Assembly (NCBI GenBank): GCA_009778155.1
Contig: WRKI01000349.1
Coordinates: 1 to 34,606, forward strand
Direction: 5' to 3'
Length of the DNA stretch: 34,606 bases
DNA from: Spirochaetota bacterium
Lineage (GTDB): Bacteria > Spirochaetota > Spirochaetia > Treponematales > Breznakiellaceae
This document shows, in pieces, positions 4,210 through 30,556 of the stretch; position 1 is the stretch's first letter, and each line of letters starts with the position of its first letter. The notes below the pieces were generated by a model that was given only the letters and a program-made list of their open reading frames with translations, did no database searches and was not told where the DNA came from. A program made the translations under genes and the position numbers.

Positions 4210-4303
4210 TAAAACCGTGAAACCGGCAAGCTATTTATGATTAAAAAATGCCTCCGGCAAAGCGAATGCTGTACATAATCGAAAAAAAATGCTAAAATTC
4301 AAT

Positions 4304-5089
4304 ATGGAACGGCTTTACAAGTACCCCCGGACACGGCATATAGCGGGATCGAAGCTTCAAAAGGGGGATGAGGATTTGGAGGCGGCCGCGTTTTCCGAGG
4401 TTGCCGGAAAATTTGTCGTGGTGGAAGAAAAAATCGACGGGGCGAATGCCGGCCTCTCTTTTGCCGGCGGCGAGCTGCGCTTGCAAAGCAGGGGGCATTT
4501 TTTAACCGGCGGCTACAGGGAGCGGCACTTCAACCTTTTGAAAAGGTGGGCGGCCGCGCACTCGGTCGAGCTTTACGATGTTTTGGGGGAGCGTTACATC
4601 ATGTACGGCGAGTGGATGTACGCAAAGCACACGGTCTTTTACGACATTCTGCCCCACTATTTTTTCGAGTTCGACATCTTCGACAAAGAGGGCGAAGTTT
4701 TCCTGTCAACGGAAAAACGACGGCAGATGCTCGCGCCGGTTCCCTTCGTGCAATCCGTGCCCGTTCTTAAAGAGGGCTGCCTTAAAAACGCAGACGAGCT
4801 GGCGGGCTGTTTGGGAAAGTCCTTGTATAAATCAGATGCCTGGCGGCAACGACTACGGGAAATATGCGAGAAAGAAAAACACGACTTCGATTTAGTGATG
4901 AAGCAGTCAGATGATTCGGATTTTGCGGAGGGGCTGTACATCAAGGTTGAGGAAGCCGGGGAAACAGTCCAGCGTTACAAGTTTGTACGAAAAGAATTTA
5001 CCGCGCGTATTTTATCCAGCGACAGCCATTGGCTTGAGCGGCCTATCATCGCCAACTTGCTTGTAAATCCCGGCGTTATGGGGGTGTGA
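4304..5089 (+). CDS. RNA ligase family protein (ATP-dependent polynucleotide ligase)
   Basis: A 261-residue covalent-nucleotidyltransferase ligase. Motif I is EEKIDGAN with the nucleophile Lys at about residue 43. An Arg downstream (QSRGHF, ~63), motif III-like YGEWMYAKHT (~101-110), IIIa FFEFDIFD (~120-127), motif IV EGLYIKVE and motif V RYKFVRKEF complete the adenylyltransferase domain. No large extra domain follows. It seals 5'-phosphate to 3'-hydroxyl ends. I prefer ATG 4304 to 4289 because homologues usually start close to the YKYPRT motif; no clear ribosome site supports either. The next gene, HD-Pnk, begins right after this stop, and supplies exactly the end-healing activities such a ligase needs. 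Confidence 0.82.
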   Translation: MERLYKYPRTRHIAGSKLQKGDEDLEAAAFSEVAGKFVVVEEKIDGANAGLSFAGGELRLQSRGHFLTGGYRERHFNLLKRWAAAHSVELYDVLGERYIMYGEWMYAKHTVFYDILPHYFFEFDIFDKEGEVFLSTEKRRQMLAPVPFVQSVPVLKEGCLKNADELAGCLGKSLYKSDAWRQRLREICEKEKHDFDLVMKQSDDSDFAEGLYIKVEEAGETVQRYKFVRKEFTARILSSDSHWLERPIIANLLVNPGVMGV

Positions 5090-6202
5090 ATGGCCACGCT
5101 AGAACAAATCGAAGGTTATGCCTTTAGCGAATACGATTGGCGGGAACGCTTGCAAAAAACGCCGCAGGAAAAAGAGTATCACGGGGAAGGCGACGTGTGG
5201 ACGCATACAAAACTTGTCATAGAAAATCTTTTGCAAGACGATGACTACGGGCGGCTCCCCGGCGACGCGCAAAAAATTATCCTGTTAGCCGCAATCCTTC
5301 ACGACATTGGAAAACCTTTTTGCACGAAAACGCTAAACGGAAAAATCACCTCCCGGCATCATGCGGTAAGGGGCGCGATGGAAGCGAGGAAGCTGATATA
5401 CAGATACGGCTTTATGGAAGAACTGTTCGGCAGGCTCTCCTTTGCAGAACGCGAACAGGTTTGCTCAATGGTAAGATACCACGGATTGCCGCTAATGTTT
5501 TTGGAAAAGGCCGATACGGAAAAAGCCATATGCCGGGCAAGTCTTGAGGTTAATCCGGAGTACCTGTACATACTTGCAAAGGCCGATGCAAAGGGGCGCA
5601 TCTCTAAAGACAAAAAAAGCAACCTTGAAACAATAGAACTTTTCAAGGAATACTGCACGGAAAACGATTGTTTTACGCAGCCGAAACATTTCCCTAACTC
5701 AAGTGGCAAATTGTTATATTTCAAGGATGCATCGTCGTACACCGGTTACGCGCCTTACGAAAAAGACAAGTTTCCGGTGTATATGATGTGCGGCATTCCC
5801 GCCTCCGGCAAAGACACTTATATAGAAGAAAATCTGGAAGGCATCTCCGTAGTTTCGCTTGACGCTATACGCCAAGAGATGGGCGTTTCGCCGCAGGACA
5901 ATCAAGGGCTTGTCGTGCAGGCGGCAAAGGCGCAGGCGAAAAAACTGCTTGCCAAAAAACAGAGTTTTGTGTGGAACGCGGTAAACATTACGGAAAAGCG
6001 CCGGCGGCCGCTTGTTGATCTTTTTACCGCATACAATGCCTTTGTCGAAGTGATCTACACGGAAGTGCCAGTGCCGGAGCTTTTCCAGCGGAATAAGTTA
6101 CGGGAGCGCACTGTGCCGGAAAACATAATCGAAAAGCTAATCGACACAATGGAAGTGCCTAAGCTGTGGGAAAGCCACCAAGTGCGCTACAGTGTTTGTT
6201 GA
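5090..6202 (+). CDS. HD-Pnk: HD phosphoesterase fused to a 5'-OH polynucleotide kinase
   Basis: A 370-residue two-domain end-healing enzyme. The N-terminal HD domain shows His39 (WTHT), the HD pair His71-Asp72 in ILHDIGKPF, His90/91 (SRHHAVRG), His131 (RYHGLP) and Asp166 (AKADAKGR), as expected for metal-dependent removal of 2',3'-cyclic or 3' phosphates. The C-terminal P-loop kinase has Walker A GIPASGKDT (~235-243), the SLDAIR motif with likely base Asp258 and phosphate-binding Arg261, and an Arg-rich lid (KRRRP). The architecture matches the HD-Pnk family described from Runella slithyformis. The ATG follows the ligase TGA with no gap, so the two genes form a co-translated repair cassette. 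It probably handles broken RNA, possibly DNA. Confidence 0.85.
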   Translation: MATLEQIEGYAFSEYDWRERLQKTPQEKEYHGEGDVWTHTKLVIENLLQDDDYGRLPGDAQKIILLAAILHDIGKPFCTKTLNGKITSRHHAVRGAMEARKLIYRYGFMEELFGRLSFAEREQVCSMVRYHGLPLMFLEKADTEKAICRASLEVNPEYLYILAKADAKGRISKDKKSNLETIELFKEYCTENDCFTQPKHFPNSSGKLLYFKDASSYTGYAPYEKDKFPVYMMCGIPASGKDTYIEENLEGISVVSLDAIRQEMGVSPQDNQGLVVQAAKAQAKKLLAKKQSFVWNAVNITEKRRRPLVDLFTAYNAFVEVIYTEVPVPELFQRNKLRERTVPENIIEKLIDTMEVPKLWESHQVRYSVC

Positions 6203-17580: not shown

Positions 17581-20500
17581 TTAATCAAACTCATTGCTTT
17601 CAAACTTCAGCACATGGCAATTCGTCTTTACAGTTCGTATTAAATCATCTGAAACACCTTCCGGGCAATGAACCTTAATATCCAGAGATACCTCTACTGA
17701 CACTCCAGGCAGTTGGTTAAAGTGCTGCAGTATTTCCGTGTTAATTTGACCGGCGGTTGATCCGAGCTTTGCAGGATCAAGTTTGACACTGCCATAAAAA
17801 TGAGTCGGCTTTGAGCTAGCCGCTTGCTGTGGCTTTATGCCGGGCAAAGATTGTTTGTCATCAAAAAGAAAAGTTTCATGAACTGATGATGCTGAAGTAG
17901 TATGGCCATCATCTGAAACTGGTGTTTCTTTGTTAAGCTGTAATTCGGCAATTTCCGGTTTAACAATAAGAGCGTCCATAGAAAAATGAAGGAACCCGGC
18001 GGAGCCGACAAGCCCCCTATATTTCCCGGCTGCATCAACATCTTCTGCATAATAAAAATATTCGCCAGAGCGGATACCCGCTTCCAATGCCTTTTCAAGA
18101 ACACTCCGGTCTTTAAGCCTGTGCAAATATACATATTGCGTATAATCTGCCCATAATTTTCTGACAGAAACATGATTTTTTTCCTGCCAAAGTTCTTGGC
18201 CTTTTTTTGACATTTCCATTGAAAGAATCTTTGGAGACAGAGATTCTATTAAAAGTTCATCCTGTTTCATTTTTTGGATCGCTTTCATTGAAGGGTTGTT
18301 CATTCCAGAAACCTTCATTTCTTTCAGAATAATCTCGTTTGCACCCTCTTGGACTGGAACAATGAGATGACACCATGCGTTTTGAATAAGCTCGCCAATG
18401 GAACGTTCTTTTTCTGATATTGCTTCATCAGTTTCCTTGCGTTGCGCAGTATCAAGATTTAAAAGGTCAGCATCTTTTTTAATTGATTCCCATGCAAGAA
18501 GCATTTTTGTTTCTTGACGTACATTGGAAAGCAACTCTGAATCCGGGGCTAGAAAAGCGATCATGTTACGGTGAATACGAGAAGAAGAACCGCGTTTTTC
18601 AAGATATTCTTTTGCAATAGACATCGCCAGAGAATTTGCATCATTTGGTTTATGCGACTCTGTAGCCCGGAGCAATACAAGATGAAAGTTTTGATCATCA
18701 GGAATGTCGGCCGATGATTTTACAGCAATATGGGCAAGACAAACAGACACCGGTACTTTGGCCAGTCTTTTTAACTCTGCTTCTACGGTGTCAATAATTG
18801 ATTCCGCTGATTGATGTTGAGTGCGATCTATTACAGTTTTACGAAGAGTCGGCCTAGTATCAAACCAATGACGGTTTTCTGAATGATATAAAAAAGTGAG
18901 ACTGTCTGCTAAAGCCCCCAGAGCGGCTTCATAAGCGGGAATGTTTTCCTCTGGCTGAATTACACCTAAGTATATGCGGCTAGAATCAATGCCACGGTTT
19001 TTTTGAGCACTGCTTGACGGGGCACTGCCTAAAAAAATTGTCCGGGCAATGCGGTTATATGCAAATTGTTTCTTGTAATACCCGCCTTGAGCATCATCAA
19101 GTTTTGCAGGCCTAGCATTTTTACCGTCTATTTCATTTTCAATGATAGGATTCCAGCCGTCTGAAAGATACCGTGTAAGTTCGTCGCGGATTGCAGGTTT
19201 GCCAATCGCAATAGAGCCGCCGGTAATCATTGCGCTGCCATCATTGTTGTCATATAAATCATAGATAACAGAGGCCATTAAGCGCAAAACGCCGCGGGTT
19301 CTTTGAAAGTGGTCTATGCTCGCCCAATCGTTGTAAAGCCTGTCGAAAATTTCCGGGTGAATAGGATAACATCGTTTCAATTTTTCCAGATAGTCTGATT
19401 CCTTGCATTCCGCAGGGAACAGCGACGAATTATTTTGATAGAGTGAAAAAAAAGCTTTACAAGTTCGTTCTACAGCTTCATTGTTTTCAATTGGCTTAAA
19501 AAGACGGCGGCGGACAATCTCGAAACTTTCTTCGGCAACAACCGGCTTCCAAATTGTTTGTATGCGGCCAATTGTTTTTTCGATACTTTGTTCGATACTT
19601 TTTAATGCGATATTTCCAGCTTCGCCGCCTGTCTCCGTTTCTGATTCTGGGATTGACACAACAACAATGCAATTGTTTGTTTTTTTGCTTGCTTCGGTAA
19701 GCTCCTGAAAAAAAGACAAAACATTTGCAAAAGTTCCCGCAGGAATATCCCCATGTTTTGTGTCGTAGAGCTTTCTTACATAAGCTACGAATTCATCAAT
19801 AAGTATAAGGCAGGGGGCGCTTTTTTCCAAAATTGCCTGCAAAGTAGAAGAGCCGGGGGAAATACCTTTTTTGTCTGCATCTTTTATTAAATCGTAAAGC
19901 TTAGGGTCGCCAGATTCTTCTGCAAGCTGGGCGGCCATTTCGCCCCAAAGAGTGTGAACCGTTATGCCGGGAAGCTTCACAGGGCGGCGCGATTTTGTCG
20001 GGTCTAAAGAAGTTCCGACAAGCGCGGCGACTTTTACTTTGGGCATCGCTTTAATATCTATTTCTGATTCGGTAAAAATTTTAGGAACATGGTGAAGTTT
20101 TTCCGGGTTAGCTGAACGCATTAGGTGATACAAAGCCAGCATACTGTGAGTTTTACCGCCGCCGAAAGCGGTTTTAAGCTGAATGACAGGTTCGCCGCCT
20201 TTGCCGCAAACACGCATTGCAGATTTTATCAATAACCCTTTCATGCCATCGGTAATATAAGTGCGGTCAAAAAATTCAACGGGGTCTTGGTATTCGATAA
20301 CTGCTTTCCCGTGCAAAACCTGGGAAAGGTCTGCGGCAAACTCCGCTTGCTGAAACCTGCCGTGGGCTACATCGGGGCGGGGTTCCGCAATTTGCCGCCA
20401 GGGTAGTGCGTAATTCGGCCCCGCAACCGGCGCCGGCCTGACAGCTTTAACAACTACGGTTTTTCCGCTAGGGCCGTCAATTTTAGTTCGCACTTCCCGC

Positions 20501-20931
20501 ATAATTTTTCGTATTGCCCCGGCAATTTCCAAATCGATTGGTTCCATAAAACGAGCCATAGTGTCCAAGGCGCGATAAGCATCGTCCAGATTAAGAGGCT
20601 TTTCTTTTGGATGAGCGATTTTATGTCTGAAGTCAATTATTTCCCTGGCATTTGTTCTTTGCTGTGTTGACACAACATATTTGAAAATATCAAACCAGTT
20701 TATTTCCAGAACTTTTTGGCAGGCCAGAATATCAAGACTGTCTCTGAGCGATTCAAAGGAGCCGGACGACGGCAGATGGTTCTGATAGGTTCCCCCTATT
20801 TTATCAATGACAAATTCATTCCACCAAGAATCTTTGTTCTTTTTTTGCAGTTCCCGGCAAATGAATTCTGCCAAGACAGGACGAATGGTTTCAAAACCGC
20901 GATTAATGTAGTCAGTAGCGTTAAGTGTCAT
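17581..20931 (-). CDS. DUF499 ATPase with N-terminal HEPN (Swt1-like) segment
   Basis: A 1116-residue protein and the last gene of the defence operon. The first ~140 residues look like an all-helical Swt1-type HEPN domain and contain FRHKIAH, an Rx4H motif (102-107) of the kind that forms the active site of HEPN RNases. The ATPase core has Walker A AFGGGKTH (255-262) and Walker B LILIDE (375-380), with SIPESE-type sensor sequence after it. The C-terminal ~80 residues (HFYGSVKLDP...VSLDIKVHCPEGV) match the DUF499 tail. DUF499 proteins accompany DUF1156 methylases and are comparable in place to the PglY/BrxC ATPases of BREX. AGGAGG precedes ATG 20931, 9 bases after the methylase stop. Role inferred: energy-driven control of modification versus attack. 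Confidence 0.82.
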   Translation of the reverse strand: MTLNATDYINRGFETIRPVLAEFICRELQKKNKDSWWNEFVIDKIGGTYQNHLPSSGSFESLRDSLDILACQKVLEINWFDIFKYVVSTQQRTNAREIIDFRHKIAHPKEKPLNLDDAYRALDTMARFMEPIDLEIAGAIRKIMREVRTKIDGPSGKTVVVKAVRPAPVAGPNYALPWRQIAEPRPDVAHGRFQQAEFAADLSQVLHGKAVIEYQDPVEFFDRTYITDGMKGLLIKSAMRVCGKGGEPVIQLKTAFGGGKTHSMLALYHLMRSANPEKLHHVPKIFTESEIDIKAMPKVKVAALVGTSLDPTKSRRPVKLPGITVHTLWGEMAAQLAEESGDPKLYDLIKDADKKGISPGSSTLQAILEKSAPCLILIDEFVAYVRKLYDTKHGDIPAGTFANVLSFFQELTEASKKTNNCIVVVSIPESETETGGEAGNIALKSIEQSIEKTIGRIQTIWKPVVAEESFEIVRRRLFKPIENNEAVERTCKAFFSLYQNNSSLFPAECKESDYLEKLKRCYPIHPEIFDRLYNDWASIDHFQRTRGVLRLMASVIYDLYDNNDGSAMITGGSIAIGKPAIRDELTRYLSDGWNPIIENEIDGKNARPAKLDDAQGGYYKKQFAYNRIARTIFLGSAPSSSAQKNRGIDSSRIYLGVIQPEENIPAYEAALGALADSLTFLYHSENRHWFDTRPTLRKTVIDRTQHQSAESIIDTVEAELKRLAKVPVSVCLAHIAVKSSADIPDDQNFHLVLLRATESHKPNDANSLAMSIAKEYLEKRGSSSRIHRNMIAFLAPDSELLSNVRQETKMLLAWESIKKDADLLNLDTAQRKETDEAISEKERSIGELIQNAWCHLIVPVQEGANEIILKEMKVSGMNNPSMKAIQKMKQDELLIESLSPKILSMEMSKKGQELWQEKNHVSVRKLWADYTQYVYLHRLKDRSVLEKALEAGIRSGEYFYYAEDVDAAGKYRGLVGSAGFLHFSMDALIVKPEIAELQLNKETPVSDDGHTTSASSVHETFLFDDKQSLPGIKPQQAASSKPTHFYGSVKLDPAKLGSTAGQINTEILQHFNQLPGVSVEVSLDIKVHCPEGVSDDLIRTVKTNCHVLKFESNEFD

Positions 20932-20940
20932 AATAGCCTC

Positions 20941-23751
20941 CTAGAAACCTAAATCACCCTGAACTGGGTTAAGCTCTTTTTTAGCTACAGCTTTGGCCGC
21001 TCCTTCCAGCGCGCTCCATGATGCAACTAAATTATTATACGCCAAGGCCTCGTCTGTCAAGCCCTTGCGCTCGCAAATTTGATAGATGCGATACGACAAA
21101 GTTTTGACTTTTTCGATTGTGTCGGCAGGCAGTTTGGCCATAAGTGCCGCGCACTTGTCATTGCCGCCGGCTTCGTCTAAAGCGTGGCATAAATGCTGGA
21201 CAATAGCCCAAACAATGTCAATGCTTTTTATAAACCAATCGAAAGAAAGTTCGCCACGGCGTTTTAGGCGGACTTTTCCGCTTTTTGCTTCGAGTATACC
21301 GGCATCTTTTAATTTTTGCTCGCTTGCCATTAGCGGGCGCATGACGGTGTTGGCATCCCCGTAGGGGCCGTCTTTGAAACCGTACTGTTCAAACCAAGCT
21401 GCGCAAAACTGGCTTTCGCCGTCCAGCGCACCGGATTGTTCGTTTAGGAAGGCATAACGCTCGTGGTTAATCATTTCCAAAGCCTGCCTGACGGAGAGAG
21501 GTTCGCCGGATGCGTCCAGAACCTGCTTGTATTTGGAGTAAACCGAAATGCCAGGGCCGATGGAAGCCTGGGGCAAGTCTACCGGGGCAATGTTTCCCGA
21601 TTGTAAATCGCGCAAACCGATTTTTAGAGCTTCGCGGAGTTCGCCTTGGAATTCTTTGCGAAAAATTTCTGCGGCATTGTCCGGCCGGGGGCGACAGACA
21701 ATTGCAATAGAAGAAGCGAGCGCGTTTGAGTCCAATGAAATAGTCCGACCTGGTCGCTCTGTTCTTAAAGGCCAAGTTCCGGTTATAGAAAAACCTGCCT
21801 TAATGATTGCTTGGAGCATAGTTTCCCAACCTGATGATGTGGTATCTGTATTATCTATATCATCATCAATGTCAGTTTGCTTATAAGCATAGTATATAAT
21901 AAGAGGATAGTTTTGCGATACAGTTTTTCGCATTTGCCTGAACGCTTGCAACATTCCTTCTTCAAAAAATGCTTTTGCTTTGTCTTTTTTCCCGTCAAAA
22001 CGATGAGGCGTTGCGACTAATTCTTCTGCCTTTGGAACAAGCATGGTAGAAAATAATTGCGGGTATACATTTTTGAGAGAGCGGCGCAGCCAAATATAAA
22101 AAAAGTCGGATAAATCGGCATAGCCAATATTGTCGTAATACGGCGGGTCAGTAGAAATAACTATTGGAGATTTGAATGTTAATTGTGTTGCATCTTTTTG
22201 GGTTACACTTGCCGTTTTTAATGCTGGAAGATTAGAAATACATTTAATCATCAAAACAAAATAATTATCAAAGCTACCTGATGAATCAGAAAATAAGTTG
22301 CATTCGGCATAATCCCAAACCATAGGAATTGCTTGTCTGGCAAAAACGCCACGGATTTTATCTCCAATATTTTGCCAACTTGCAAATGAGCAATTTCTAT
22401 CAAGCAATTTATTTACAGCACAAGCCAAATACACCCCCACAGCTTCAGCGTATGCTTTGACTCCTGCGCCGTTTTCATCAAGGCTGCTTGTATCTGTGTT
22501 ATTTTTATAACCAGACGACTGTTTGGCATCTTTTTCAATCTGTGCAATTGCTTCGCTTATTAAATCGCTGAAGGTTACCAAAGCGGTAAGCTGGCGCGGG
22601 GTAAAAAGGTCTGCCCAAGTGAAAAAGCCATACCCCCTGCCACTTACTAAATCGGTAGTATCTCGACTCATTTCTTGTTCAGGTTTCCATTTAGGGATAG
22701 CTGTTTTTACAATTTTTTCGTGCTCATCTAAAGGGGATAAATATACACGATTCTTCGTACCTTCCGCCACAATAGCTATTAGTTTTGCTGTCATACGTCC
22801 AGACATACTTTCATTTTTTATATACTTTTCTCCAGCAATCTGTTTGCATACTTCACAACAAAACTGTGCTCCGCGTCCAACTTTAGGCGAATCTGGCACT
22901 TTGCCTTTTCCTGTTTTAACTTGAAAAGAAACCATTTTACTGTTTTTGTCAACAATAGGTTCTACCCATGCTTCTTTGCCTTTTTTCTTTGAAAGCCAAT
23001 AACTGCTAACTAAAGGCATCTGTGCGCCGCACGCCGGGTTAGGGCATTCCACCGTCCGCGCCCAAAGCCATGCTATTACGGTGGCTTCATGGCTTTTTTC
23101 TGTGGCTGTCGCAGGAACCTGCACTTTTGGGTACAAATGGCCAATTTTATCGTAAGCTTTTTGCCGCATCCATTCGCCGTAGTACCTTACATCTTCGGCA
23201 AGCCCCGCCGCGCTCTTCCATTCAGAAGCCCCGCCGATTTTTCTTTGCGACTCTGGATTTACCGGCGGCCGGTTGGCGAACTTTGGTGGGATTTCTATTA
23301 GCGCCTTGTTGATAAGAACCGCTACCGGGTTAAGATCGCTTGCATGGGCTTCAAGCCCCAGCCGCTGGGCTTCCAAGGGAATGGAACCCCCGCCAGCAAA
23401 TGGATCGAGTATTGGCGGCGGCTTGCCCCCGGCGGAATTTTTTATTTCTTCCCAGGCTTCATTGTAAAGTTTTTCATCCTTGATATTTTCCCATTTTACC
23501 AGCCGTTCAATAATGTTAAAAAGACGCTCGCGTTCTTTTTCCTGCGCCTCCGCCGTAGGAAATTTGTCTTTATCGCTGGAAGGGTCATCCACAAGCGATG
23601 CGAAAAGCACTGCCCGGCAAGCCGCCAACGGCCGGCGCGCCCACCAAAGATGCAATGTAGAAGGATGTCCGTGGCGGATCGATTTTTCACGAGCGGCTTC
23701 GGCATTGATTGCCTCCAAGGGAAGCGCCACTTCGATTAGTTTTTTTTTCAT
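20941..23751 (-). CDS. DUF1156 protein, adenine-specific DNA methyltransferase-like
   Basis: A 936-residue protein. The start (KKLIEVALPLEAINAEAAREKSIRHG, then LHLWWARRPLAACRA) is the DUF1156 domain. The S-adenosylmethionine motif DPFAGGGSIPLEA is at ~116-128, and the amino-methylase motif TDPPYYDN is at ~535-541, in the order of alpha-type N6-adenine methylases with a very long insert between. The insert holds a likely zinc ribbon (CPNPACG near 235 and CCEVC near 297) and a WADLFTPRQLTAL segment typical of the family. It should mark host DNA. ATG 23751 overlaps the upstream stop as ATGA, giving coupling. The insert is AT-rich compared with the ends. The target sequence cannot be read. Confidence 0.85.
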   Translation of the reverse strand: MKKKLIEVALPLEAINAEAAREKSIRHGHPSTLHLWWARRPLAACRAVLFASLVDDPSSDKDKFPTAEAQEKERERLFNIIERLVKWENIKDEKLYNEAWEEIKNSAGGKPPPILDPFAGGGSIPLEAQRLGLEAHASDLNPVAVLINKALIEIPPKFANRPPVNPESQRKIGGASEWKSAAGLAEDVRYYGEWMRQKAYDKIGHLYPKVQVPATATEKSHEATVIAWLWARTVECPNPACGAQMPLVSSYWLSKKKGKEAWVEPIVDKNSKMVSFQVKTGKGKVPDSPKVGRGAQFCCEVCKQIAGEKYIKNESMSGRMTAKLIAIVAEGTKNRVYLSPLDEHEKIVKTAIPKWKPEQEMSRDTTDLVSGRGYGFFTWADLFTPRQLTALVTFSDLISEAIAQIEKDAKQSSGYKNNTDTSSLDENGAGVKAYAEAVGVYLACAVNKLLDRNCSFASWQNIGDKIRGVFARQAIPMVWDYAECNLFSDSSGSFDNYFVLMIKCISNLPALKTASVTQKDATQLTFKSPIVISTDPPYYDNIGYADLSDFFYIWLRRSLKNVYPQLFSTMLVPKAEELVATPHRFDGKKDKAKAFFEEGMLQAFRQMRKTVSQNYPLIIYYAYKQTDIDDDIDNTDTTSSGWETMLQAIIKAGFSITGTWPLRTERPGRTISLDSNALASSIAIVCRPRPDNAAEIFRKEFQGELREALKIGLRDLQSGNIAPVDLPQASIGPGISVYSKYKQVLDASGEPLSVRQALEMINHERYAFLNEQSGALDGESQFCAAWFEQYGFKDGPYGDANTVMRPLMASEQKLKDAGILEAKSGKVRLKRRGELSFDWFIKSIDIVWAIVQHLCHALDEAGGNDKCAALMAKLPADTIEKVKTLSYRIYQICERKGLTDEALAYNNLVASWSALEGAAKAVAKKELNPVQGDLGF

Positions 23752-24644
23752 GCTTGTCCATTCCCCTTGTATTCATCAATGCGTTTTTTCGCCTGTTGAA
23801 TCGCGGCGTTTTGTTCACCGGAGCTTTTCCCGTAAAAACCGCCAATGATTATTTCAGGCGAACTGTCTTTTCGATGTACAAAAAAAATTCTCTGCCCTTC
23901 GCTGTGCATTCGCAGTTCAAGCAAAGAGCCGTATTTTGTATCGGCATCAACAAGACTTTTTACGAGCTTGCTGTCTACCGCATAATTCCTTTCTTTTGCC
24001 CTTTCCATTTTTTGGAAAAAACCAGAATTCTCCCAAAGCTGCGGAGGCGGGGCTGAATTGAGTGCTCCTGTACAAAACGTTGCATTAAATTGATTGCAAA
24101 AACGGTCGGGAATGTTTGAGATTGAATCTATGCAATGTTGTTTTATTATTGAAAGATCACTTTGCCCCCAAAGGTTGTGTAAAATTTCCTGTTGATTTTC
24201 AAACTCAATTTTATCAACACACCAATCTTGTTCTGTTGGGATTGTAAGAGCAATGGCTTTGTTTTTAACAGCCAGTTCAAGCAAGGGAGCCGGAACACCT
24301 AGGGCAGGGGCAGATAAAATCCAGTTTTCTGCCTTAAGAATTTCATCGCTAACAACTATTTTCCCCTGAGAAAAAGAAAGCAATAATAAACGAAGTTTAT
24401 CCCGCTCTGCATTACCTGTTTTGAACATAAGAGAGCCAATGTCAAACTCTCCGTTTTTACTTCTAACAAGAATAAATTTCGATGGCGGCAATTCAACTTC
24501 TGGGTTAGTAGTCTTTGCAGATAAGCTAACGCCGGAGCATTCTTTTTTTAAGCGCAATAATGAGTCCGCCGCCATTACTGCCGAGCGAATACCTTCTTCT
24601 TCGGTTTTAGCCGCGCCGGGAAACGGGTTAAAATATATTTCCAT
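23748..24644 (-). CDS. Uncharacterised protein with C-terminal HigB/RelE (Gp49-like) toxin-type domain
   Basis: A 298-residue protein that I do not recognise as a whole. Residues 1-190 (starting MEIYFNPFPG) match no family I know. Residues ~220-294 follow the Gp49/HigB pattern: a helix, then YGSLLELRM, a strand with a central arginine (GQRIFFVHRK), EIIIGGFYGKS in place of the usual hxHGFxKK, and a closing helix AIQQAKKRIDEY. In toxin-antitoxin pairs this fold cuts mRNA on the ribosome. No separate antitoxin gene is visible. GGGGGG lies 5 bases from ATG 24644; the next gene (methylase) overlaps its stop. The toxin reading is from pattern alone and could instead be a structural or DNA-binding use of the fold. 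Confidence 0.7.
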   Translation of the reverse strand: MEIYFNPFPGAAKTEEEGIRSAVMAADSLLRLKKECSGVSLSAKTTNPEVELPPSKFILVRSKNGEFDIGSLMFKTGNAERDKLRLLLLSFSQGKIVVSDEILKAENWILSAPALGVPAPLLELAVKNKAIALTIPTEQDWCVDKIEFENQQEILHNLWGQSDLSIIKQHCIDSISNIPDRFCNQFNATFCTGALNSAPPPQLWENSGFFQKMERAKERNYAVDSKLVKSLVDADTKYGSLLELRMHSEGQRIFFVHRKDSSPEIIIGGFYGKSSGEQNAAIQQAKKRIDEYKGNGQA

Positions 24645-24655
24645 GACAGCCCCCC

Positions 24656-25681
24656 TTAAATCAACCGCATGAGGTTTTTTTCTGTCTCGTCAAAAAAACC
24701 TTCAGGCCAAAAATCGAGCATACCGTGTTCATCAATATCGGGGCTTTCAACAGTTACTGGCTCTTCGTTGCTGTCATCTGTGGAATCCTTTTTAAAGAAA
24801 AAAGCCTTTACGTCGGCATGATCAATCTTTTTATCTTTTATGGCAATTCTAATGCCATTCATCAAGTGATCTGAATGTGTTTCAACAACAATTTGCACGC
24901 CGCACGCGGCCGCAAGGGCAAGCATTTCGCCAATTTTAGTCTGGCCAGAAGGATGTAAATGAGCTTCAGGGTTTTCAAGCAAGAGTAAAACCGACTCGGT
25001 TTTTTTTGCGGCTAACTGGCTTGCATGGATTAAAATACTGGCTATTACCGGAAGCGTATATGACAATCCAAACCCGACATGAACCGGCCGGTGTTTGTTG
25101 AACACAGTTTGGCCAAGATCGGTATTATTATCGGATTTATATTCAAAATTAATCCCCGGCGAAATAAAACGGAGCCACTCCCTTATGTTTGCATTTACGC
25201 CATTCCCCTCTTTTACAATGAGAGGTCCGGGAATTGTAAGATCATCCCAATCATTGTCAAGCCGTGTGAGAAAATCTACGATATATTCCCCCCGGATGCC
25301 AACGGTTGCAATATCTTTATCAATGCTTAAAGGCAATGATGTTCTTGGCCCCAAACGGTCTGCGGATATATAAGACACAATGCCGCTAAATGCGCTTTTT
25401 CCTTCAAGCTTGCCGCCGCGCTCATAGGAAAAAGCTACGACATCGTTTTCATTTGCCACGATTTGCTCGCACTCAAGGCGGAACCCTTTCATATCGCTTC
25501 TGATATATTGAACAAGGGGGCCAAGCTCTGGAAGCGGTTTCTTTTCTTGTAACAAACGAATTGCCTGAATTACAGAGCTTTTACCGGAGCTGTTTAGTCC
25601 CGACAATATGTTCAACCGGCCTAAATCAAAAACTTCGTCTTCAAAGGCTTTGAAGTTATTTAACGACAGTTTGGAAATCAC
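24656..25681 (-). CDS. AAA/RecF-like ATPase with C-terminal DUF3696
   Basis: A 341-residue SMC/OLD-type ATPase. The start KLSLNNFKAFED, Walker A GLNSSGKSS (28-36), a VGFGLSYTLPVI signature-like segment (202-213), Walker B LLLLENPEAHLHP (232-244) and the ETHSDHLMNGIR switch (268-277) are present. The last 31 residues (GMLDFWPEGFFDETE) are the DUF3696 tail. No TOPRIM nuclease domain follows. The start codon is GTG 25681, overlapping the DUF262 stop as GTGA, with GGAGG 7 bases upstream. Translational coupling to DUF262 implies that the two proteins act together as sensor and effector. Cytoplasmic. Confidence 0.88.
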   Translation of the reverse strand: MISKLSLNNFKAFEDEVFDLGRLNILSGLNSSGKSSVIQAIRLLQEKKPLPELGPLVQYIRSDMKGFRLECEQIVANENDVVAFSYERGGKLEGKSAFSGIVSYISADRLGPRTSLPLSIDKDIATVGIRGEYIVDFLTRLDNDWDDLTIPGPLIVKEGNGVNANIREWLRFISPGINFEYKSDNNTDLGQTVFNKHRPVHVGFGLSYTLPVIASILIHASQLAAKKTESVLLLLENPEAHLHPSGQTKIGEMLALAAACGVQIVVETHSDHLMNGIRIAIKDKKIDHADVKAFFFKKDSTDDSNEEPVTVESPDIDEHGMLDFWPEGFFDETEKNLMRLI

Positions 25682-26892
25682 GAGTTGTCCTCCATTAATA
25701 CTTGCTGAACGATTTTATTTACAATTTCATACCGGCCTTTTATGCCGGATATTTTTAAGCTGTCTTTGCCTATACAGTTGCGCAACATGGAATTGTTACT
25801 ATCAAATTCTGCATCCAGTTTTTTATGCAACAAACTTTTATTTTTTTTCAGTTTTTCAAAATCGCTTTCTGTCATTTTTGCCAATATAACTGTCCATAAT
25901 TCAAAAAGCGATTTGTTGACTGGAGCCCTCTGTTTTCCCCAATCCCTTTTTATCGGTGTTGTAATCCTAAATGCGCAATTTTCAAAAAGCTGCGTTGCCC
26001 TTTCCATTGCCGCCAAAAATTCCTTTTTAAGGCTATCATCGAAGTTACGAGTTGCATTTCGATTTACAGACAAGGGATTATTGTATTTGCTATACGCTTT
26101 GGGTTCAATGGCGCGATTTATTAATTGCATTGTATCAGAAAGGAAAGAATCCATCTCATCGTCTTTTTTATATTCGCTTATGTCAAAAACCATGAACGCA
26201 AAAGAACGTAAAACAAGTTCCTGCGCGGCCATTCGAGAATCCTTCACGCTGTTATCAATTGCGGTTTTGAATTCATTTGTATCAACAAGCTTTTCAAGCA
26301 GTTCGGTAACAGGGCCAAAATACAGGGCGTTTCGTATTTCTTGATCCGTCAATGGAAGCCCTCCGGTATTAAGGCGTTTGAATATGTTCCGCTGTACTTC
26401 TGGCGGGGAATCTGAACCAATGACGGCAAAATCAAGTTCCGTTTCACTTATCCGTATTTGCATTTGCTCTGGTATTTCATCAAAATATTTTCCGTCAAGC
26501 TCTTTCAAAAATTCCAAAGACTCTAGTTTGTATTCTTTTTCCAATACGAATCCCCTAATGGCGCTTAGGCGTTGCAACCCGTCAACAATAAAAAGTTGAT
26601 CATCCTTGGTTTCTGCGGCATAAAATAAAGGCAAGGGGATTTTTAACATTATCGACTCTATCAACCTGCTTTTTCTTCCATCATCCCAAAGGTTTTCACG
26701 TCTCTGTATTGAAGCCGCATGGATCAAGCCCCTGCCCAATCTTCTTATTACGTTTGAAAGAGAAATTTTCCTGTTTGATATGGAAATTTTTCCCGTATCA
26801 AAAGGATATGGCGCGAATACTTCTTCTTCTACACCCGAATTGCTGCCATCGGCTCCCAGTTCCTGCTTAATGGTTTCATCAATATCGTTCAT
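25678..26892 (-). CDS. DUF262 domain protein (GmrS-like, without the HNH half)
   Basis: A 404-residue protein of the DUF262 (ParB/Srx-fold) family seen in type IV restriction enzymes such as GmrSD. It has the LIESIMLKIPLPLFY segment (~77-91), FIVDGLQRLSAI (101-112; the family's DGQQR appears as DGLQR) and FKRLNTGGLPLTDQEIRNAL (171-190). The C-terminal half is helical and lacks the DUF1524 HNH motif, so the protein lacks its own obvious nuclease. The track start 26910 is a TTG overlapping the helicase; ATG 26892 with GAGG 8 bases upstream is the better start and gives a 10-base gap. It pairs with the downstream DUF3696 ATPase. Nucleotide-dependent control is inferred. Confidence 0.85.
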   Translation of the reverse strand: MNDIDETIKQELGADGSNSGVEEEVFAPYPFDTGKISISNRKISLSNVIRRLGRGLIHAASIQRRENLWDDGRKSRLIESIMLKIPLPLFYAAETKDDQLFIVDGLQRLSAIRGFVLEKEYKLESLEFLKELDGKYFDEIPEQMQIRISETELDFAVIGSDSPPEVQRNIFKRLNTGGLPLTDQEIRNALYFGPVTELLEKLVDTNEFKTAIDNSVKDSRMAAQELVLRSFAFMVFDISEYKKDDEMDSFLSDTMQLINRAIEPKAYSKYNNPLSVNRNATRNFDDSLKKEFLAAMERATQLFENCAFRITTPIKRDWGKQRAPVNKSLFELWTVILAKMTESDFEKLKKNKSLLHKKLDAEFDSNNSMLRNCIGKDSLKISGIKGRYEIVNKIVQQVLMEDNS

Positions 26893-26902
26893 TTCCCCCA
26901 CC

Positions 26903-29900
26903 TCATACAATAATTTCCTTCTCCAGGGCTACATGAGCCACCTGGCAAAGTTTCCTTAAATCCAAACTTCGCCTGCTTTCCGCAAAAGACGGTCCGGAAT
27001 CAACCCAATTCGTAAAATATGTAATACTGCGTTTATTGCAATCTACAATTACAACTGCCAAGATAAACTTACCAGGGGTAGTGGCCGCAACTTTCATTTC
27101 ATTATGGGTTACCGTTATGTCGTTTTTCCCGGCTGCCCGGCCTTTTACTTCAATAAACCTTAGAGAGCCTTCCGTGGTTTTGGACTCTATGTCGTATCCA
27201 AGGTTATATTTGCTGACATCTTTGGGTAGATTGCCGGCTTCTTGTTCGATAACGATTACTGTTTGCATAGCTATCCGCTCAATTTCATCCCGGCCTTCTT
27301 CAGTAGTAATTGTCGGTACATCCTGTGTGCTTGAAGGCAACATAGCTCGCGGTACAATCCATGCTCCGCCAAGTATTGCAGGCGGTTTTGATACAATGTT
27401 GCGTTCAAGCGACAATTCGGCAAGGCGTTTATTGCGGCGTATCTCCAAGGCATTGACGCGTTCCCTAAATTTGTCCGCATTAAGGCTGGCATTTGCTTTG
27501 CCCAAAGCCGCTTGGTCTGACATTATGCCTGCCTGAGCATCCCAATAACGTATTTCCGCATTCAGCCTGTTTTTTACTTCCTGCTCAACCTTATTCACAT
27601 AAGCAATACGACGATCCTTCATCTCTTTCAGATGGCTAGGCATAAGATTTGTTACCGCATAATTTTTTGCCAATGTTCCAACATCTTGACCCCACCAAGC
27701 CTTTGATAAAATAAGATTTTGAAGAATGGAATATTCTTCCTGCGAAGGTATGGCATAATCCAGATACGGGGCAAGGCCGGCTGATTCCACTGTTCCGTCT
27801 TTATATATTTCGATAAAGTGCAGGCGGTGAGATGCCTTTACCGGGCGGCCAATGCTATCGATTCGTCCGTCTTCAAGAATGTCCTCCACAAAGAAAAGCA
27901 GCCGGTCTTTTTTACCCGATGCAGTATCATCAATAAAAATAGTTCCTTGTGTAAGAAGACTTTGATTCTTTTCCAGAATTTCACCTATTAACGCGCTAAG
28001 CAACGGATGTCCCGGACAGATCAAAGCTGCATCATCAATACGTCCGTCAACATGGACATATTTTTTTTCAAAGGTTATTGCCTCATAACTTTTGGCTATT
28101 GGGTAGCTAACCCCCATATTGGAACGGCTTTCCCGTAAAATGCGCGGAACATACGGAATTGTATAACGGCGATCAGGACGTTTGCGGATTTGGCCTTTCA
28201 TCTCCTCAAAAGCGCCAATAAAGAAACTTTCGATAAAGTGGGGCTGTAGCCGACGGGCTTCTATGCGTTCCATTGCTTCACGAATTTCATGGACTTGTTC
28301 TATTCCCAGGCTTTGGCCGGCAAGGGAGCGTTCCGCAATGAGTCGTTCCAATTCGCTGCGATCCAGTGCGCCATCGATTGTATTTTCCAGTTTTTCTAGA
28401 ACTTCCGGCTTGTTGCCGTAACGAATCGCTTCGATTAAAAGTTCGCGTAACGGCCTGTCTCCAAAATTCACTTTTCCCAATACGTCAAAAACCTTGCCGC
28501 CCAAAGCTTCTCTTTCCCTGTCCAATTTTTCAAAAAGCCGGGTAAACACATCGCCCTCGCGGGTGTCTTTTGCTACAAGGTTCCACAGATGGCACACGGT
28601 TTTTTGCCCAATCCGGTGAATGCGTCCAAAACGCTGTTCAAGGCGGTTTGGGTTCCAGGGCAAGTCGTAGTTAATCATCAAATGCGCCCGCTGCAGGTTA
28701 ATGCCCTCGCCGGCGGCATCCGTGGCAACCAACACGGAAACATTCTTTTCGTTCTTAAATCGTTCTTCGACCAGTTTTCGTTCTTCCCGCCGCATACCGC
28801 CCTGTATAGTAACCACCGATTCATCATTGGCTAGCATAGAACGGATTCTGTTTGTCAAATATTTTAGCGTGTCTCGGTGTTCGGTAAATATAATTACTTT
28901 TTCCCGGCTTTCCGCATCGAACATAAGGGAATTGTCTTGCAATGTTACGGAAAGTTGTTCCCATTTTTTATCAACCCCGGAATGAAGCAATTGTTTTGCC
29001 TCCAGTTCCAAACTGTTCAATGTATGTATTTCTGTTTCAAGTTCGACTATTGTTTTTGCCGATGTCGCTTCATCAATAAATTGTTCTTCTAAACTGTTGA
29101 TTTCTTCTTCAGAAGCATCTTCGTAATCGTCCCAGTCTTCTTCGGAAAAATCTTTTGCGAAATCTGGCGTTAGGTGCACATCGTGTAAATCTTTCGCCGT
29201 TTGGTAAAATTCCAACTTTTTTTCAAGGCGTTCTCTGCGGCGTTGCAAAGATTGATATATCGCTTCCGGCGATGATGCCAGGCGACGCTGCAAAACTGTG
29301 AGCGCAAAACCTACTGCATGGGCGCGTTTTGGATCAAGAGCTTTTTGCGCCATGTCAAAACCGGTTCTGACATAATCGGTAACTTTTTGGTAAAGCTCCA
29401 TTTCCTGATAAGAAAGTTCATATTTAAGGGTATACGCAAGACGTTCCGGGAATAAGGGTTTGCCTTCAAACGTTAAAAGTTCTTCTTTGACAAGACGGCG
29501 CATAATGTCGCCTGCATTGGTTTCCATTTTGCTTCGATTTTTTCCTTCAAAACGGTCGCCGTCAAGCAAGCGTAAAAATAATTGAAAGTCGTCCTCTTTG
29601 CCGTTATGCGGTGTCGCGGTGAGCAATAAAAAATGCCGTGTTTGTTTTGAAAGCAGTATTCCAAGATTGTACCTTTTTGTATGCTGCTCTTTGTCGCCCG
29701 AAATCGTGGCGGACATTTTATGCGCTTCGTCGCAGATAATAAGGTCCCATTCAGAATGTTCCAGTTTTTTTTGAATTTCTTCGTTTCTTGAAAGTTTATC
29801 CAAACGGGCAATAAGGTAAGGGTGCTGGTTTTCGGCAAAGACATTCCCGCTTCGGGATGATTCCAGCATATCGTTAGTAAGGATTTGAAAATCAAGCTGA

Positions 29901-30421
29901 AACTTGCTGTACAGTTCGTCTTGCCACTGTTCAACAAGATTCCCCGGCGAAACGATGAGGCAGCGGTTTAAGTCTCCGCGCACTATCAGCTCCTTGATAA
30001 AAAGGCCGGACATGATGGTTTTACCCGCGCCGGGGTCATCGGCCAAAAGAAAACGCAAGGGCTGTCTGGGGATCATTTCCTTATAAACGGCTGTTATTTG
30101 GTGAGGCAAAGGCTCGATAAGGGATGTATGCACGGCAAGATGGGGATCAAAAAGATGCGCCAGCTTTATCCTGTATGCTTCGCAAGCAAATTTTACCTTT
30201 GCGGCATTGGCGTCAAATTTCCAGGGCAATCTTTGCGTTTCTATGGAAAGGCCAGCCAAGTCATCTGAATAGAGCAACTGGTTTCCTATGGAGCCGTCAT
30301 TCTTGCGGAAAAACACTTCTATAGCGTCTTCGTTAATGGGCTGGGTTGTTACTATTTGGACAGATTGTCCCGGAATTAGCCCATTTAAACGGTCGCCTTG
30401 CTTTATTATGTGGAAATTCAT
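26903..30421 (-). CDS. SNF2-type helicase with C-terminal DUF3883 domain
   Basis: A 1172-residue protein and the first gene of the defence operon. The helicase core shows motif I ADDPGAGKT (~127-134), DEAH (231-234), TATPHNG (~268-274), VLVATDAAGEGINLQ and QRFGRIHRIGQ, as in HepA/RapA-like SNF2 translocases. A long helical linker follows. The C-terminus has the DUF3883 pattern GYDIES...RFIEVKG with EVK near 1091, which resembles the Asp and Glu-x-Lys of PD-(D/E)XK nucleases. The track start at 30550 adds an Arg-rich stretch translated from intergenic GC repeats; ATG 30421 (MNFHIIKQGDRL) fits homologues. DrmD of DISARM is a comparable SNF2 protein. Role inferred: translocation along, and perhaps cutting of, foreign DNA. 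Confidence 0.85.
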   Translation of the reverse strand: MNFHIIKQGDRLNGLIPGQSVQIVTTQPINEDAIEVFFRKNDGSIGNQLLYSDDLAGLSIETQRLPWKFDANAAKVKFACEAYRIKLAHLFDPHLAVHTSLIEPLPHQITAVYKEMIPRQPLRFLLADDPGAGKTIMSGLFIKELIVRGDLNRCLIVSPGNLVEQWQDELYSKFQLDFQILTNDMLESSRSGNVFAENQHPYLIARLDKLSRNEEIQKKLEHSEWDLIICDEAHKMSATISGDKEQHTKRYNLGILLSKQTRHFLLLTATPHNGKEDDFQLFLRLLDGDRFEGKNRSKMETNAGDIMRRLVKEELLTFEGKPLFPERLAYTLKYELSYQEMELYQKVTDYVRTGFDMAQKALDPKRAHAVGFALTVLQRRLASSPEAIYQSLQRRRERLEKKLEFYQTAKDLHDVHLTPDFAKDFSEEDWDDYEDASEEEINSLEEQFIDEATSAKTIVELETEIHTLNSLELEAKQLLHSGVDKKWEQLSVTLQDNSLMFDAESREKVIIFTEHRDTLKYLTNRIRSMLANDESVVTIQGGMRREERKLVEERFKNEKNVSVLVATDAAGEGINLQRAHLMINYDLPWNPNRLEQRFGRIHRIGQKTVCHLWNLVAKDTREGDVFTRLFEKLDREREALGGKVFDVLGKVNFGDRPLRELLIEAIRYGNKPEVLEKLENTIDGALDRSELERLIAERSLAGQSLGIEQVHEIREAMERIEARRLQPHFIESFFIGAFEEMKGQIRKRPDRRYTIPYVPRILRESRSNMGVSYPIAKSYEAITFEKKYVHVDGRIDDAALICPGHPLLSALIGEILEKNQSLLTQGTIFIDDTASGKKDRLLFFVEDILEDGRIDSIGRPVKASHRLHFIEIYKDGTVESAGLAPYLDYAIPSQEEYSILQNLILSKAWWGQDVGTLAKNYAVTNLMPSHLKEMKDRRIAYVNKVEQEVKNRLNAEIRYWDAQAGIMSDQAALGKANASLNADKFRERVNALEIRRNKRLAELSLERNIVSKPPAILGGAWIVPRAMLPSSTQDVPTITTEEGRDEIERIAMQTVIVIEQEAGNLPKDVSKYNLGYDIESKTTEGSLRFIEVKGRAAGKNDITVTHNEMKVAATTPGKFILAVVIVDCNKRSITYFTNWVDSGPSFAESRRSLDLRKLCQVAHVALEKEIIV

Positions 30422-30429
30422 AAGCCATT

Positions 30430-30465
30430 CAATTCTAGCACAAATCAATAATTTTTGCCAGCCTC
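30430..30465 (-). promoter_or_regulatory. Candidate promoter of the defence operon
   Basis: On the minus strand a TAGAAT lies about 12 bases before the ATG at 30421, and about 18 bases further upstream a CTGGCA matches the -35 consensus at 4 of 6 positions. The transcript would have a leader of only a few bases, in line with the lack of a ribosome site before this ATG. Read-through from the hemerythrin gene is the alternative. Confidence 0.33.
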
Positions 30466-30510
30466 TAGGAGCAAAAAGAGAACCGTAAGTTTTTCTGCGT
30501 CCGATTTTTG

Positions 30511-30556
30511 GCCGCTTCGCCGCCGCGCCGCTTCGCCGGCGAAAGGGCAAAGCGGC
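30511..30556. repeat. GC-rich direct/inverted repeat after the hemerythrin gene
   Basis: GCCGCTTCGCC occurs at 30511-30521 and 30527-30537, and its near-complement GGCAAAGCGGC at 30546-30556, so either copy can form a stem. It lies between the hemerythrin stop and the helicase start. It probably folds into a 3'-end hairpin of the hemerythrin mRNA; there is no U-tract. Confidence 0.5.

Follow-up and report, generated by a model that had tools for sequence, protein, structure and literature searches.

A Putative HEPN RNase Built into the DUF499 ATPase of an Hma Operon

An N-Terminal HEPN Domain in HmaC

The DUF499 ATPase (HmaC) of an Hma operon from a Spirochaetota bacterium carries an N-terminal HEPN domain whose RNase motif is almost invariant among homologues, and this domain is therefore likely to be an active RNase. 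We propose that HmaC joins a DNA-surveillance ATPase to a catalytically competent HEPN endoRNase, and that pairing of its HEPN domains would lead to RNA cutting and growth arrest. The probability that this entire model is correct is, in our estimate, roughly 0.6. The DNA analyzed here (the window) is 34,606 nucleotides long and represents one entire contig of a draft genome composed of 353 contigs. The features discussed are listed in Table 1.

Table 1. Locations of the Hma genes, domains, and motifs in the window
Feature	Position	Strand	Basis
hmaC, DUF499 AAA+ ATPase with N-terminal HEPN, 1116 aa	17581-20931	-	PADLOC, Pfam
HEPN_Swt1 domain (PF18731), aa 11-133	20533-20901	-	profile positions 1-115 of 115
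Rx4H motif RHKIAH, aa 102-107	20611-20628	-	R 91/91, H 90/91 in HEPN-bearing alignment
Walker A segment GGGKTH of HmaC, aa 257-262	20146-20163	-	no variation in alignments of 12 and of 60 homologues
Ribosome-binding site AGGAGG of hmaC	20937-20942	-	read directly, just upstream of ATG at 20931
hmaB, DUF1156 N6-adenine methylase	20941-23751	-	PADLOC HmaB 1142 bits; Pfam DUF1156 2.1e-32
Nsn-like cassette, nested between hmaA and hmaB	23748-26910	-	PADLOC
NsnC-like	23748-24644	-	PADLOC 2.2e-6
NsnB, AAA/DUF3696 ATPase	24656-25681	-	PADLOC 1e-92
NsnA, GmrSD_N	25678-26910	-	PADLOC 2.2e-111
hmaA, SNF2 helicase with C-terminal NOV_C nuclease domain	26903-30550	-	PADLOC HmaA 1443 bits from aa 45
NOV_C / PD-(D/E)XK nuclease domain of HmaA, aa 1090-1176	27023-27283	-	NOV_C 7.4e-21; D...ExK intact

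A preliminary description of this DNA had noted the residues FRHKIAH at positions 101-107 of the ATPase, and had proposed that they provide the Rx4H motif of an active HEPN RNase. These residues are indeed encoded by the hmaC reading frame, where the codons for R102 and H107 occupy positions 20626-20628 and 20611-20613 of the minus strand, respectively. A bare Rx4H motif carries little information: it appears in 19.8% of shuffled versions of the first 144 residues of HmaC, and the entire window protein contains four copies. Thus, the case for a HEPN domain rests on the profile match and on the conservation of individual alignment columns.

The suggested search with the HEPN_Swt1 profile produced a match over the full model, with Pfam E-values of 8e-22 for the first 144 residues and 1.2e-20 for the whole protein. 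The corresponding scores of 74-78 bits are well above the curated cut-off of 27.5 bits. The window protein therefore exhibits both features of HEPN_Swt1 membership, which are a full-profile match and an Rx4-6H motif in which the R is followed by a polar residue. The remainder of the protein matches the PADLOC HmaC model (1.7e-290, aa 177-1116) and Pfam DUF499 (1.2e-34, aa 313-820). At the level of sequence, the assignment of the N terminus of HmaC as a HEPN domain is confirmed. A search by sequence of solved structures using the HEPN alignment yielded no relative, and the two matches that it did give, both to designed helical proteins, are attributable to chance.

Conservation of the Predicted Catalytic Residues

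Homologues were collected from whole genomes, plasmids, and 80 named genome contigs, and those with an N-terminal HEPN domain were assembled into an alignment of 91 sequences that includes the window protein. R102, R120, and D123 are present in all 91 sequences, and the columns for E97 (90/91), H107 (90/91), D67 (89/90), and W79 (89/90) are nearly invariant. The possibility that R102 and H107 might not be conserved, which would have counted against the original proposal, is not borne out. Position 103 is N in 89 sequences and H in the other two (the window and locus L099), such that every sequence carries N or H. This agrees with the report that N, D, or H follows the motif R in most HEPN domains (PMC3710099). 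Mean pairwise identity is 37% for the HEPN domain compared to 50% for the ATPase core, and the Rx4H motif has therefore been retained despite substantial drift.

All 76 homologues scanned with Pfam match HEPN_Swt1. Subsets of these proteins also give weak matches to the HEPN families RiboL-PSP (15 proteins, best 3.8e-6), Apea (17, best 2.6e-4), and DUF4145 (11, best 1e-3), which lends indirect support to the HEPN assignment.

KEN and PrrC depend on the motif R and H for their RNase activity (PMC3710099). The conservation of the catalytic columns is the basis on which we predict RNase activity for the HmaC domain. An alternative is that the HEPN domain is non-catalytic and serves in RNA binding or as a scaffold for ATPase dimers or oligomers. 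Such domains do exist, including those of eukaryotic Swt1 and MtlR (PMC3710099), and one homologue has P in place of H107. However, HEPN domains without catalytic activity have lost the Rx4H motif, whereas this motif is kept almost without exception in a set of domains that are on average only 37% identical. In addition, ten HmaC ATPases manage without any HEPN domain. We consequently regard a purely structural or RNA-binding role as improbable. The sole H107 exception, in which the residue is P, occurs in an archaeal (Bathycorpusculum) homologue (locus L045, 6587-7021).

The HEPN domain and the ATPase core of HEPN-bearing proteins have diverged together. Their pairwise distances are strongly correlated (Mantel r = 0.89, n = 90), and none of 1000 permutations gave a value as high. 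This favors joint inheritance of the two parts over frequent swapping of HEPN domains. The same pattern is expected of any integrated part, and the conservation of the catalytic columns is compatible with any RNase role. Both results would therefore also suit an active HEPN RNase that cuts phage RNA or one particular host RNA in ordinary defense or regulation, for example to control the mRNA of its own operon, with no suicide switch. Weighing against this reading is the established behavior of the defense HEPN RNases PrrC, RloC, and RnlA/LsoA, which mostly stop translation or growth (PMC3710099). We consider such an ordinary role unlikely, but it deserves more weight than a non-catalytic domain.

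HmaC Homologues with and without HEPN

A FastTree phylogeny was built from 104 rows, comprising 102 HmaC cores and two outgroup proteins. One homologue (L113) was counted as HEPN-bearing because its HEPN domain lies in an adjacent split frame, and another (L096) was excluded because it is located at a contig edge. On this tree, 91 proteins carry HEPN and 10 do not, which requires a minimum of four changes. These counts should not be read as prevalence, given that the ranking of homologues was based on their similarity to a query with HEPN. In a published survey, HEPN-fused ATPases were found in 1370 of 2446 taxa with Type-1 DUF499-centred systems (PMC12839542, 2026). The existence of the 10 sampled homologues without HEPN indicates that the domain is inessential to the Hma system.

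The nearest relative of the window protein (L010; 57% identity, same family) is among those that lack HEPN, and no HEPN remnant was found on its contig. In this locus (L010/L150, contig C81 of genome G377), hmaB and hmaC are separated by a HEC-01-like AAA gene together with a short partner fragment. We considered whether this might be a fixed substitute cassette for HEPN, but rejected the idea because it is absent from the other HEPN-less loci. Likewise, a separate HEPN gene was sought in the flanks of the HEPN-less loci and none was found. The genome that includes the window does encode a second, stand-alone HEPN_Swt1 protein (L002; G000:C324:7908-8243, minus strand) that has the motif RTIVAH and adjoins Sel1-repeat genes.

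A Complete Hma Operon

The helicase, the DUF1156 methylase, and the DUF499 ATPase are all present in one operon that spans positions 17581-30550 of the minus strand, and the Hma operon is thus complete. Based on these sequence matches, the gene examined is hmaC of an Hma system, which is also known as a Type-1 DUF499-centred BREX-related system. The genes are close or overlapping and are transcribed in the order hmaA, Nsn-like cassette, hmaB, and hmaC, with metabolic genes downstream of hmaC. Translation of hmaA probably begins about 40 codons after the listed TTG. PglZ, which would be encoded with the operon in BREX proper, was not found among the window proteins scanned, which represent part of the window ORFs, and no HmaC match was found in phage genomes.

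Other Hma loci hold different genes, or none, in the slot between hmaA and hmaB. A literature search on Nsn returned nothing relevant. In three loci from Bacillota, a tandem pair of different HmaB-like methylase genes precedes hmaC (L049, 4644-9732; L050, 4890-9974; L072, 4837-9978).

Elsewhere in the window, positions 4289-6202 of the plus strand encode an RNA ligase (PF09414, 1.7e-34) followed by a protein with HD and AAA_33 kinase domains, which together resemble an HD-Pnk RNA-repair pair. Some 11 kb with metabolic genes separate this pair from hmaC, which lies on the opposite strand. RNA-repair genes were rejected as regular Hma partners because no relatives occur in the flanks of other Hma loci.

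Relation of the HEPN Domain to the HmaA DNase

The fused helicase-nuclease is missing from about a fifth of Type-1 systems, and compensating nucleases have been suggested (PMC12839542). It might therefore be reasonable to view HEPN as a substitute for a lost DNase effector where the helicase has no nuclease. However, the D...ExK pattern is intact at the C terminus of HmaA in the window and in all 58 loci where this region is readable, of which 54 are HEPN-bearing and 4 HEPN-less. The intact motif implies that HEPN at the window locus adds to the DNase rather than replacing it. We reject the substitution idea for this locus, and judge it very improbable as an explanation for the domain.

Proposed Mechanism

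According to our preferred model, HmaC would be a DNA-surveillance AAA+ ATPase fused at its N terminus to a metal-independent HEPN endoRNase. Self DNA would be methylated by HmaB, with HmaC serving as the partner of HmaB in recognition, and unmethylated DNA would be cut by the HmaA helicase-nuclease. Persistent engagement of HmaC, or disturbance of the complex, might then cause HEPN domains to pair and so bring two Rx4H motifs together into an RNase site that cuts RNA and stops growth. Pairing is plausible given the general behavior of HEPN RNases, and the trigger, the RNA target, and the abortive outcome that we envision are likewise plausible. In the literature searched, we found neither a structure of an HmaC HEPN domain nor any RNase assay or phage experiment addressing one.

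One possible extension, which we offer tentatively, is that the DUF499 ATPase governs two effectors. The HmaA DNase would act first, the built-in HEPN RNase would act if the DNase fails, and the Nsn-like cassette would provide a further layer.

Comparison with Known Systems

The fusion of HEPN to DUF499 and the suicide-RNase idea are already known, and the fusion is common in such systems. In 2013, the fusion was reported from an R-M-like operon, with its HEPN domain labeled active (Anantharaman et al., PMC3710099). The Ava_2192-type fusion described there shares with the window an Abi2/Swt1-family HEPN domain joined to a DUF499 AAA+ ATPase, in an operon with an SNF2-DUF3883 helicase. There is no essential difference between the two, although the motif in the window begins with RH instead of the RN of most homologues, and the window operon also carries the nested Nsn-like cassette. 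Type-1 DUF499-centred BREX-related systems share the core of ATPase, N6-methylase, and helicase-nuclease (PMC12839542), whereas the window has three additional genes between the helicase and methylase. Extra nucleases inside such loci have been reported, and a last-resort suicide RNase role has been proposed for the HEPN-fused ATPase (PMC12839542).

All three components of the PADLOC Hma system (HmaABC) match the window very strongly. The PADLOC HmaC model (941 aa) begins at residue 177 of the window protein, and the HEPN domain consequently falls outside the model. Many plasmid homologues are named "Swt1 family HEPN domain-containing protein" by NCBI and align over 99-100% of the query. These proteins exhibit about 30-37% identity to the window HmaC, and do not differ from it in substance.

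To these earlier findings, our analysis adds the residue-level conservation of the HEPN domain, the co-divergence of this domain with the ATPase core, and the examination of the HmaA nuclease. The conservation data point to residues for mutation, and the intact HmaA motif eliminates replacement of a lost DNase as an explanation at the window locus. Should the HEPN domain prove to be an active effector, then a suicide RNase is part of the recognition ATPase in an R-M-like system. This would help to explain the circumstances in which such systems save the cell and those in which they sacrifice it.
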